Below, piece after piece: positions 3,098 to 6,470 of a DNA stretch of 49,114 nucleotides. Under the pieces are notes generated by a model, which searched no databases, was not told the origin of the DNA, and saw nothing but the letters and a program-made list of their open reading frames with translations. The DNA lies in contig LDYB01000010.1 of NCBI GenBank assembly GCA_001442985.1, positions 1-49,114 on the forward strand. Reading direction: 5' to 3'. The first letter of the stretch is position 1. Every line of letters begins with the position of its first letter. The DNA is from Armatimonadetes bacterium DC (GTDB taxonomy: Bacteria > Armatimonadota > Fimbriimonadia > Fimbriimonadales > GBS-DC). The position numbers and the translations under genes were made by a program.

Positions 3098-3103
3098 TAT
3101 AAT
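3098..3103 (+). promoter_or_regulatory. -10 box of the proteasome operon, predicting a leaderless dop mRNA
   Basis: A perfect TATAAT ends 6 nt before GTG at 3110. The transcript should therefore begin at or within a base or two of that GTG. This decides the dop start: the ATG at 3092 lies upstream of the -10 box and could not be transcribed from it. Confidence 0.65.
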
Positions 3104-3109
3104 ATCCCC

Positions 3110-4618
3110 GTGCATCGCCTGATTGGAATAGAGACGGAATATGGTCTCTATGTGGAAGGGCGCAGTGTGTCCGAACAGATGGGGGACGCAGTAAGCCTCC
3201 TGCGGTGTTGCCCGTTTCCAGCGGTCAAGAAATGGGACTATCGTCTGGAAGACCCCCGTCGCGACATGCGCGGTTTCCGCGTAGAGCAGTTAGCTGTAGA
3301 CCCCAAAGACGCTGAGATTGAGCGTGCGCACCCGATTAGCCTTTCGGAGCAGGAGGCGCGTGCCGACCATGTCTTAGCCAACGGCGCCCGCTTCTATAAC
3401 GACCACGCACACCCCGAATATGCCACGCCCGAATGCCTGCGCCTGCTGGATTTAATCGCTCATGACAAGGCGGGCGAGCGAATCGTGCTGGCGACCGCCC
3501 GCGCCTTTGAACGCGAAACAGGGCTGAAGGCGCACCTCTACAAAAACAACTCCGACCATCACGGCAGCAGCTACGGCTGCCACGAGAGTTATCTCCTGCG
3601 GCGCGATATTGAATTCAATGCTCTGCCCCTCACGCTGGTGCCGTTTCTGGTGACGCGCATGCTGTATGCAGGCGCGGGCAAAGTGGGGGTGGAGGTGAAC
3701 CCCTACCCGCGCGTGCCCTATCAGATTTCCCAGCGTGCCGATTTTTACATGGATGTAATGAATGTGGAAACGCTTTACAGGCGCCCCATTTTCAACACGC
3801 GCGATGAGCCGCACGCCGTCGCACGGCGCTACCGACGCCTGCATGTCATCTGCGGCGACGCGAATATGAGCGAGTACGCCACCGCGCTCAAGGTCGGCAC
3901 CACCGCGCTGGTGATAGACCTGATTGAAGACGACTGGCTCCCCGACTTCGTGATGAAAGACCCCGTGCGCACAGCCCAACAACTCTCGCGCGACCCCGAT
4001 GGCAAGTGGCTCGTGGAAACCGAAGGGGGGACTATCAGTGCGATTGACCTCCAGCGCCACTACCTCGCCGAAGCCCAGCGACGCTACGCCGGGCGCGACG
4101 CCGAAACCGACTGGATTCTGCGCGAGTGGCAAACCGTGCTGGATACCCTCGAAACCGAACCCGAAGCGCTCGCCGACCGCCTCGACTGGGTGGCAAAACG
4201 CCAGCTCCTGCAACTTTTTGTGGAATCTGAGGGGGTTTCCTGGGAAGACCCTGCGATTTTTGCCCTCGATCTGGAGTATCATCATGTAGACCCCCAGCGG
4301 GGGCTATACTATGCGCTTGTGGAACAGGGGCAGATGCAGACGCTGGTCTCCGAGGAGGCGATTGAACGCGCGATGACCACGCCTCCCGAAGACACACGCG
4401 CATGGATACGGGGTATGTGTGTGGCTCGCTTTGCAGAACAGATTCAGAGCCTCAACTGGGAGCAGATTATTCTGCGCTCGGAGGCGCAAACCGTTCGGCT
4501 GGACCTCAGCCGAATGGTGGGCAATCTCAAAGTGCTCAACCGCCGTCTCACGGAGGTTGACAATATCACCACCTTTGTGCAGAAGGTACAGGAGGCATCT
4601 CATGATGTGGCAAGCTGA
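3110..4618 (+). CDS. dop: Depupylase/deamidase Dop of the Pup (UBact) proteasome system
   Basis: About 502 residues of the Dop/PafA carboxylate-amine ligase-like family. Visible landmarks: the N-terminal GIETEYG nucleotide-binding motif, [15 protein letters not shown] (the Dop-specific loop region), [19 protein letters not shown] (Dop form; PafA has a variant before HPEY), [24 protein letters not shown]-like FNTRDEPHA, and [16 protein letters not shown]. Dop removes the tag from substrates and, in species whose tag ends in Gln, deamidates it. Here the tag ends in Glu, so only tag removal should be needed. The start is GTG 3110, set by the -10 box 6 nt upstream. The 3' end overlaps the tag gene by 17 nt. 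It could be mistaken for PafA, but the DHAHPEY and WDY regions favour Dop. Confidence 0.93.
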
Positions 4619-4790
4619 AGAGCGTCTACGGCGTCCGATCCCGCAGGAACCGATTACCCGTCCGGGGGGCGATGGCGACGGTCCGTCCCGTCCCGATGTG
4701 AAGCGCCCCGACACGAACGAGCTGCTGAAGCGGATGCGCCGTATTGATCCTGAGCAGGCACGGAAATACCGACAGCGCAGTGGAGAGTAG
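4602..4790 (+). CDS. pup: UBact/Pup ubiquitin-like protein tag
   Basis: 62 residues, starting [12 protein letters not shown], with a low-complexity Gly/Asp/Pro middle and a conserved C-terminal block LLKRMRRIDPEQARKYRQ ending in RSGE. This ending and the KRMRR-IDP-Q-YRQR pattern fit the UBact branch of Pup-like tags known from Gram-negative phyla such as Nitrospirae and Armatimonadetes. The C-terminal Glu side chain is what the ligase joins to substrate lysines. The start has GGAGG at 4591-4595, 6 nt before ATG 4602 (9 nt before a second ATG at 4605). The gene overlaps the end of dop by 17 nt and lies 4 nt before prcB. It is intrinsically disordered by composition. The classic actinobacterial tag ends GGQ or GGE; the Ser-Gly-Glu here is the branch difference. 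Confidence 0.93.
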   Translation: MMWQAEERLRRPIPQEPITRPGGDGDGPSRPDVKRPDTNELLKRMRRIDPEQARKYRQRSGE

Positions 4791-4794
4791 TCCT

Positions 4795-5595
4795 ATGCAC
4801 CATGCAGGCGACTTCTTCGCGCTCCTGCAGGCGTATCAGGAGCGCACGGGTGTGCGCATCCCGCTTCTGAGCGCGTTCACGGGCGAAGCGCCCGCCCACG
4901 CCCCCCGCGAGAGCGCAGTTGAAGTCCATGGCACGACCGTGATTGCGCTCAAGTTCCGTGGGGGCGTGCTGAATGTGGGCGACCGCCGCGCTACCGCCGC
5001 GAACGCCGTGATGTACGACCGCGCCGACAAGATTATTCCTCTGGACGACTACACCCTGATTGCGATTGCAGGCGCCTATGGACGCGCGATGGAGGTGGTG
5101 CGCTACCTGCGCCACGCCTTCAAATATTACGCCCGGAGCCAGCTCCAGCCCATGAGCCTCGATGGCAAACTGCAAGAGGTCAGCCGCGCGCTGGCTGCCA
5201 ACCTGCCGAACGCCCTCAGCGGCATCGGGATCTTCGTGCCCATTCTCAGCGCGTATGACCCCGCCACCGATAGCGGGCGAATCTTCTTTTATGATGTGAG
5301 CGGCGCGCGCTTCGAAACACAGGAGTACGGCGCGGCAGGCTCCGGGGCAGAGCGCATCCGCGGCGTGTTCGACTACATCACCAAAACCAAAGGACCCTTC
5401 AGCGCACGCCCGCTGGAAGAGGTGCTGGAAGAGGCGCTGCTGATGCTGGATATCGCCGCCGACCTGGACGCCGCCACGGGGGGCATCGATAAGGTTCTCC
5501 CCACGGCACGCTACGCCAGCCGCGACGGCGTGTTCGAAGTGCCCGCCGACACCATCCGCTCTATCGTCCAATCCCTGCGTGCAAGGAGCCTGTAG
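4795..5595 (+). CDS. prcB: Proteasome beta subunit PrcB
   Basis: 266 residues. A propeptide of about 46 residues ends in VEVHG, followed by the catalytic Thr47 (TTVIALKFRGG), which becomes the N-terminal nucleophile after self-cleavage. Counting from that Thr, Asp17 (VGDRRAT) and Lys33 (YDRADK) are at the canonical active-site positions, so the subunit should be an active threonine peptidase. It forms the two inner rings of the 20S core. GGAGAG lies about 7 nt before ATG 4795. prcA follows after 3 nt. Confidence 0.95.
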   Translation: MHHAGDFFALLQAYQERTGVRIPLLSAFTGEAPAHAPRESAVEVHGTTVIALKFRGGVLNVGDRRATAANAVMYDRADKIIPLDDYTLIAIAGAYGRAMEVVRYLRHAFKYYARSQLQPMSLDGKLQEVSRALAANLPNALSGIGIFVPILSAYDPATDSGRIFFYDVSGARFETQEYGAAGSGAERIRGVFDYITKTKGPFSARPLEEVLEEALLMLDIAADLDAATGGIDKVLPTARYASRDGVFEVPADTIRSIVQSLRARSL

Positions 5596-5598
5596 CCT

Positions 5599-6366
5599 AT
5601 GCTAACACCCTACGATTTTCAGGAGAACCTGCAACAGCGTGCGCAATACATTCGCAACCGCCTGCAGTCGGGCAGCCCGGTGATTGGGCTGAGCTACGAC
5701 AACGGCGTGATGTTGCTCTCTGTCCGGCGCCAGACGCGCAAGGTGTACGAAATCTACGACCGCCTGATGCTCTCCGCGATTGGCAACCAGTCGGATGTGG
5801 AGACCGTGCGCCTTGCGGCGATTGACTTCGCGCATCAGGAGGGGTTCGTGCGCAGTCCCGACGATGTAACGGTTCAGCGTGTGGTGGGCTTTGCGCTCAG
5901 CCCTGCCCTCAAAAAGGCGTTTGGCGACCCGCTAACTGCGCCGTTTGTGTTTCGCGGGCTGTTCGCGGAACTGCACGACCGCCCCGAAGACGACCTCTTC
6001 TACATCCTCAACTACGACGGCGACTTCCTGCCCATGAATCGGATGGCGGTGATTGCGGGCACGACCTACGCCGAAGAACAGGCGCTCCAGTACCTCAAGG
6101 AGCAGATTCAGAGCGTGCCGGCGCTGGAGGAAGCGATTCGCCGTGCCCTGACGGCATGGGGCATCGCGCGGCGGCTGGCAACGCAGGAAGAGCGCGAGCA
6201 TGTGTCCGAACGCGAGGCGCACGAAACCCTGCGCGAAATTCTGGACAGCGAAACCCATGTGGAGGCAGGCGTTCTGGAGCGCCAGACCCTGCGCGAGAAC
6301 CGCTTCCGCCTGCTCCGCCCCGAAGAGATTGCCGCGGCGATGCCATTGCCGCCAAGCTCGCCGTAG
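5599..6366 (+). CDS. prcA: Proteasome alpha subunit PrcA
   Basis: 255 residues with the N-terminal gate helix region (MLTPYDFQENLQQRAQYIR) followed by the alpha-subunit core (SPVIGLSYDNGVMLLSV, KVYEIYDRLMLSAIG, VETVRLAAIDFA). It has no catalytic Thr, as expected for alpha rings, which gate the core and dock the ATPase. The tail after about residue 190 is charged and probably helical. AAGGAG lies 10 nt before ATG 5599. It is the last gene of the operon; after it come hairpin repeats and then a convergent unit, so neither pafA nor mpa/arc is in this cluster. Confidence 0.93.
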   Translation: MLTPYDFQENLQQRAQYIRNRLQSGSPVIGLSYDNGVMLLSVRRQTRKVYEIYDRLMLSAIGNQSDVETVRLAAIDFAHQEGFVRSPDDVTVQRVVGFALSPALKKAFGDPLTAPFVFRGLFAELHDRPEDDLFYILNYDGDFLPMNRMAVIAGTTYAEEQALQYLKEQIQSVPALEEAIRRALTAWGIARRLATQEEREHVSEREAHETLREILDSETHVEAGVLERQTLRENRFRLLRPEEIAAAMPLPPSSP

Positions 6367-6470
6367 CAGGGGCATCCTGCCCCTGCCCACGCGCAGGATG
6401 CGCAAGCTACTTGCGCTGACTGAGGTTGGATTCGTTTGACAGAAACCGCTTCAGCCGTCGGGCGCCAAAG
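6366..6470. repeat. REP-like hairpin cluster after prcA
   Basis: Two tight hairpins lie directly after prcA: gcaggggca / tgcccctgc (6366-6386, loop of 3) and gcgcaag / cttgcgc (6400-6416, loop of 3). Neither has a T-run. A short sequence aaccgcttcagccgtcg near 6447-6463 resembles aacggctttagccgtcg in the large repeat at the right end of the window, so this may be a degraded member of the same repeat family. Confidence 0.5.

Follow-up and report, generated by a model that had tools for sequence, protein, structure and literature searches.

The dop-UBact-prcB-prcA operon

The window, by which we mean the whole stretch of 49,114 nt analysed here, constitutes the whole or a part of contig 10 (C10) in the genome of Armatimonadetes bacterium DC (G000; 2.85 Mb, 95% complete, estimated contamination 0.8%). 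Four genes on the forward strand, dop, UBact, prcB and prcA, occupy positions 3110-6366 and make up a tight operon, in which the end of dop runs 17 nt into UBact and gaps of 4 nt and 3 nt separate UBact from prcB and prcB from prcA. The features, with the evidence for each, are the following.

3098..3103, + strand: TATAAT, a probable -10 box (direct reading of the letters)
3110..4618, + strand: dop, de-tagging enzyme, 502 aa (GTG start; PF03136, tree, spacing)
4602..4790, + strand: UBact tag, 62 aa, ending RQRSGE (PF20513, NF033388)
4795..5595, + strand: prcB, proteasome beta subunit with propeptide (TIGR03690, PF00227, active-site alignment)
5599..6366, + strand: prcA, proteasome alpha subunit (TIGR03691, PrcA alignments)
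6366..6410, no strand assigned: hairpins 3' of prcA (stems read from the sequence)

All four genes matched their families at scores well beyond chance level. Dop reached 531 bits against Pup_ligase (PF03136) and scored higher with the Dop model (465 bits) than with the PafA model (366 bits). Phylogenetically, it belonged to the UBact-Dop clade (tree of 93 Dop and PafA proteins), and it carries a long insertion between the ETEYG and NGARFYND motifs, which are 91 residues apart. The GTG start at 3110 is shared in position by the homologues and lies ahead of GIETEYG. The tag gene, preceded by an AGGAGG Shine-Dalgarno sequence, scored 83 bits against PF20513 and 90 bits against NCBIfam NF033388, and its product has the R[ST]G[EQ] end of the UBact family. 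The two proteasome subunits matched PF00227 at 83 and 28 bits; PrcB scored 139 bits against TIGR03690 and PrcA 73 bits against TIGR03691. Alignment placed Thr1, Asp17 and Lys33 of the PrcB active site after the propeptide (GTTVIALKFRGGVLNVGD...ADK), so that the 20S core includes an active-type beta subunit. The first-pass annotation had proposed the tight operon, the active-type PrcB and the RQRSGE end; coordinates, strand, gaps and family scores bear out the first, the alignment bears out the second, and the end of the tag is intact.

Adjoining the operon, at 634-2112 on the reverse strand, is a ThiS-ThiF-rhodanese triple fusion, in which a ubiquitin-fold carrier is joined to its own E1-like enzyme.

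Promoter and hairpins around the operon

The TATAAT at 3098-3103 is a perfect match and ends 6 nt ahead of the dop GTG, which suggests that the operon message would be leaderless or near-leaderless. A consensus scan upstream of dop returned this hexamer alone and no two-hexamer sigma-70 site. The operon's own promoter, as first proposed, thus holds for its -10 box and not as a full sigma-70 consensus.

The hairpins proposed to follow prcA are present, with a perfect 9-bp stem at 6366-6386 and more arms up to 6410. A genome search for the 15-nt core of this hairpin, GGGGCATCCTGCCCC, gave 17 copies with at most one mismatch, compared with 0 for the reversed control; one copy is that at 6366-6386 and the 16 others are spread across the genome. 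Because of these 17 copies, a signal specific to the operon was ruled out, and the hairpin is a genome-wide repeated element.

The ligase and the ATPase lie elsewhere in the genome

Neither pafA nor mpa is present in the 49-kb window, as had been noted. Two explanations had been offered for this, namely that the genes are encoded elsewhere or that a different ATPase and ligase serve the system, and the whole-genome search settled on the first by locating both.

A genome search with the window Dop identified a single paralogue at C14:117753-119228, the one match obtained in the proposed search for PafA. It is a full-length Pup_ligase, and the tree of 93 proteins placed it in the UBact-PafA clade as sister, with 100% support, to the operon-linked pafA of G190, a genome of the sister genus, with whose product it is 73% identical. 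The C14 gene is thus, from its phylogenetic position, the predicted PafA ligase of the UBact system, so that both members of the Dop/PafA pair occur in the genome. The near-equal scores of its product with the PafA and Dop models (307 vs 298 bits) would also suit a second Dop rather than a ligase. That assignment is highly improbable, since the stretch ahead of the catalytic Asp motif is short in the C14 protein, without the long insertion (63 residues vs 91 in the window Dop), and the protein groups with operon-linked pafA genes; tree and missing insertion together ruled it out.

The gene lies behind the 5S gene of an rRNA operon and is followed by aroF, a counterpart of which was not matched in the loci read from relatives. 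The position behind the rRNA operon was likewise not seen in the relatives examined, and it was rejected as an old feature. Immediately upstream (C14:110000-117660), the 23S rRNA gene is fragmented; in its gaps are several reading frames resembling LAGLIDADG homing endonucleases and a match to a group I intron.

The genome model search returned one full-length Mpa/ARC match, at C8:6286-7974 (449 bits, TIGR03689). The product has two OB domains and an AAA domain, as in proteasomal ATPases, and its best solved relative is the mycobacterial Mpa, over profile positions 30-563. This gene adjoins nusA and also has a thioredoxin-like gene as a neighbour, neither of which was found in the mpa loci read from relatives. 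These UBact proteins stayed under the cut-offs of all three curated models (PafA, Dop and Mpa), which we take to reflect that the models describe Pup systems.

Assembly breaks do not account for the split. The pafA gene is 117 kb inside its contig. For mpa, a contig end lies 6.3 kb away, and a join of C8 to C10 would bring the gene to within about 9 kb of dop at most, but in the opposite direction and in no operon with it.

Since PafA and the Mpa/ARC ATPase are encoded in the same genome, the organism very probably has a complete UBact tag-proteasome system with its own ligase and ATPase. True absence of the two, with an unrelated ligase and AAA ATPase serving the tag, would agree with a window that carries neither gene, but it is barely credible and was ruled out by the whole-genome search: both orthologues are intact and full length in the same genome, its rescue would need C8 and C14 to be contamination in a genome with an estimate of 0.8%, and the C14 gene pairs in the tree with the pafA of a relative of the same family. 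The observation made at first is therefore confirmed and its interpretation partly supported: with two proper partners in the genome, an organism without ligase and unfoldase, or one relying on substitutes, is not supported. The system is an ordinary UBact one, two of whose genes have been relocated.

Stepwise dispersal of the operon

Among 201 genomes of the phylum, Pup_ligase was found in 114, UBact in 106 and the ATPase in 103, and these genome sets were nearly identical. In addition, weak and distant matches to the Pup_ligase family occurred in four genomes without UBact (G123, G147, G189 and G191), possibly representing another branch of the ligase family.

The order mpa-dop-UBact-prcB-prcA-pafA was observed in eight genomes of the phylum outside the taxonomic order of the window organism (G022, G063, G007, G136, G043 and G059, plus G112 and G002, where the gaps are wider), and is probably the ancestral one. 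In G190 and G174, dop-UBact-prcB-prcA-pafA are linked and mpa is elsewhere. In the genome studied here, pafA has left the operon as well, so that four of the six genes usually, though not necessarily, clustered are in the window and two are at other sites. In family f2, dop-UBact-prcB alone stay together in the genomes read; at three of its loci (L048, L051 and L061) the operon stops after prcB, and prcA has moved away from it. This graded linkage points to stepwise dispersal, of which the window represents one step. The UBact system of this genome is partly dispersed and includes no substitute enzymes.

The scattering of genes in this genome and in family f2, together with the lack of UBact in 95 of the 201 genomes, could also be read as decay, with the break-up of the operon as a prelude to loss. 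We consider this very unlikely. All six genes of the present genome are full length and keep their active-site residues, and almost every f2 genome retains the tag, the enzymes and the ATPase despite the scatter. Dispersal of a complete gene set is the reading retained here.

The end of the tag

Among 101 tags read from the phylum, 54 ended in Gln (CAG or CAA) and 47 in Glu (GAG or GAA), and both ends coexist in single genera, e.g., EEQQQEQQQQQE in g3. Because a single-base change in the codon exchanges Glu for Gln, the final Glu has little diagnostic weight for the organism. Its proposed meaning, that a tag encoded with Glu would need no deamidation step and be ready for ligation, with Dop acting in removal or recycling, is supported; the same argument has been published for species whose Pup already carries a terminal Glu (PMC3511204).

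At two loci of genus g38 (L166, G074:C30; L170, G013:C4), the first tag is succeeded by another UBact-like frame of divergent sequence. The second frames end in YKQRPGQ or YEQRSGQ and the first tags in YRQRSGE/Q; these operons possibly encode two different tags.

The ATPase tail and the alpha-ring pocket

The C8 ATPase ends in NRVI, which is neither GQYL nor HbYX, and so lacks the penultimate Tyr of the Pup-system (GQYL) tail. The same holds for its class. The penultimate residue was Ile or Val in 61 of 62 distinct UBact-type ATPases, drawn from Armatimonadota, Verrucomicrobiota, Nitrospirota, Nitrospinota, Poribacteria and Gemmatimonadota, and Tyr or Phe in 59 of 61 Pup-type ones. Oddities in the UBact-type set were two sequences ending in RAIE and one in NAI. 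Odd Pup-type tails were SDLL in Brevibacterium (L257) and TSVP in Streptomyces ipomoeae (L254), the latter perhaps a sequencing frameshift; the PrcA of both loci retains Glu119 despite the odd tail. Since UBact ATPases end in [IV]-[IV] or similar, the GQYL/HbYX tail search that had been suggested would have produced a false negative. No description of the [IV][IV] tail was found in the literature searched, which lacked most subscription papers, including the original UBact paper.

The penultimate Tyr has been described as the main binding determinant in proteasomal ATPases of eukaryotes and bacteria (PMC8755798). In the complex from Mycobacterium tuberculosis (Mtb), Arg26 or Glu119 of PrcA forms a bond with the penultimate Tyr608, the tail carboxylate meets Lys52, and the backbone of Gly606 meets Asp144 (PMC9599533). 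We compared these positions in 83 PrcA proteins (54 Pup-type and 29 UBact-type). At the Glu119 position, Glu was present in 54/54 Pup-type proteins, and Ile, Val, Leu or Ala in 29/29 UBact-type proteins. Lys52 and Asp144 were invariant across all 83, and the Arg26 position held Arg, Gln or Lys in the Pup type and almost any residue in the UBact type. In the PrcA of the window, the equivalents of Lys52, Glu119 and Asp144 are K48, V117 and D140. A HMMER alignment of an Armatimonadota profile with the solved Mtb PrcA gave identical column pairing.

By these alignments, the Tyr and Glu pairing of the Pup class is swapped in the UBact class for Ile/Val on the tail and Ile/Val/Leu/Ala in the pocket. 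The PrcA tree separated the two types by one split (100/100), so the association cannot be counted as several independent events; a single change in the tail and a single change in the pocket, both on one deep branch, may account for it. The pairing is suggestive of a docking contact. Moreover, the last two residues of the tail stay hydrophobic across at least six phyla and the 10-15 residues ahead of them vary freely, which argues for a function of the tail. We consider the odds even, or slightly favourable, that the UBact ATPase docks by a tail ending in two small hydrophobic residues instead of a Tyr tail.

The main competing explanation gives the tail no docking role: the core would be held by another surface, for example by the beta-grasp hairpin of the ATPase on the H0 helices, and the Ile/Val end would be lineage drift. 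A single origin on the PrcA tree is in keeping with this, and Mtb Mpa also employs a beta-grasp hairpin (PMC9599533, PMC8755798). Drift does not readily explain, however, why the last two residues remain hydrophobic in at least six phyla beside 10-15 residues that are free to vary, why the carboxylate-binding Lys is invariant, or why no partner PrcA has kept the Tyr-binding Glu. We therefore regard a tail without a docking role as rather unlikely, though the strongest of the rival explanations, and keep to docking through the hydrophobic pair.

Genomes with both Pup and UBact systems

A genome scan combined with whole-genome searches identified nine genomes of Nitrospirota and Poribacteria that contain both tags and two ATPases, one per gene set (G208, G229, G230, G211, G216, G231, G213, G217 and G220; loci L324-L343). 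The Pup-side ATPases end in GHYL, GHYF or GTFL and the UBact-side ATPases in NQII, NHII, SRVI, ARVI, SQIV or RAIE, so that the tail rule is obeyed in 9/9. The whole UBact gene set is clustered in all nine. Four of them also have the complete Pup set in one cluster; in the other five it is partly split between contigs or has no Pup frame in the stretch read. By best match, no cross-type genes were found in these clusters. Genomes with both systems were not found described in the literature searched, most subscription papers being outside its coverage. That UBact proteasomes use a second docking code, in which two small hydrophobic residues at the end of the ATPase tail fit a pocket where the Tyr-binding Glu has become hydrophobic, and that this code helps to separate the UBact and Pup ATPase-proteasome pairs in cells with both systems, seems to us an evenly balanced proposition.

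Proposed working of the system and its implications

In the scheme that we propose from the sequences, PafA would link the side chain of the final Glu of the tag to lysines in target proteins. The ATPase would bind the tag with its N-terminal coiled coil and thread the target into a PrcA7-PrcB7-PrcB7-PrcA7 core; Dop would take the tag off or recycle it. The NRVI tail would dock on the core with its penultimate Val/Ile against a hydrophobic wall that includes Val117, its carboxylate still meeting the invariant Lys of the alpha ring. Gene content, positions, orthology and the difference in tail and pocket between the classes were established by the sequence comparisons; conjugation, degradation and the docking contact are predictions.

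A whole class of bacterial proteasomal ATPases is without the penultimate Tyr, and the pocket of the partner is altered at the Tyr-binding residue; unfoldase docking probably differs throughout the class. The UBact class offers a natural experiment on gate opening of the proteasome by ATPases, and on the means by which two such machines could be kept apart in one cell. In practice, unfoldases and ligases of UBact systems will be missed by searches for HbYX/GQYL tails or by reliance on gene neighbourhood.

Comparison with known systems

No match to the Pup tag (PF05639) above the cut-off and no second alpha/beta proteasome pair were found in the genome. With the mycobacterial Pup-proteasome (Pup, Dop, PafA, Mpa and PrcAB), the system has in common the six components, the ancestral gene order and, as far as can be judged from the proteins, a chemistry that would use the side chain of a Glu at the C-terminus. 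It differs in the tag family, in the [IV][IV]-type tail vs GQYL, and in a hydrophobic residue of the alpha ring vs the pocket Glu119; moreover, its enzymes and PrcA fall in clades apart from the mycobacterial ones. The HbYX tails of PAN and Rpt proteins resemble the UBact tail as C-terminal tails that would extend into the alpha-ring Lys pocket, but they have a penultimate Tyr and the UBact tail has none. The closest counterpart is the UBact conjugation-proteasome system of Lehmann et al. 2017 (BBRC 483:946), as cited in PMC12751074. The present system shares its tag family, Dop/PafA pair, PrcA/PrcB core, Mpa/ARC-type ATPase and RSG[EQ] end, and is distinguished by a dispersed operon, with pafA and mpa at separate sites.
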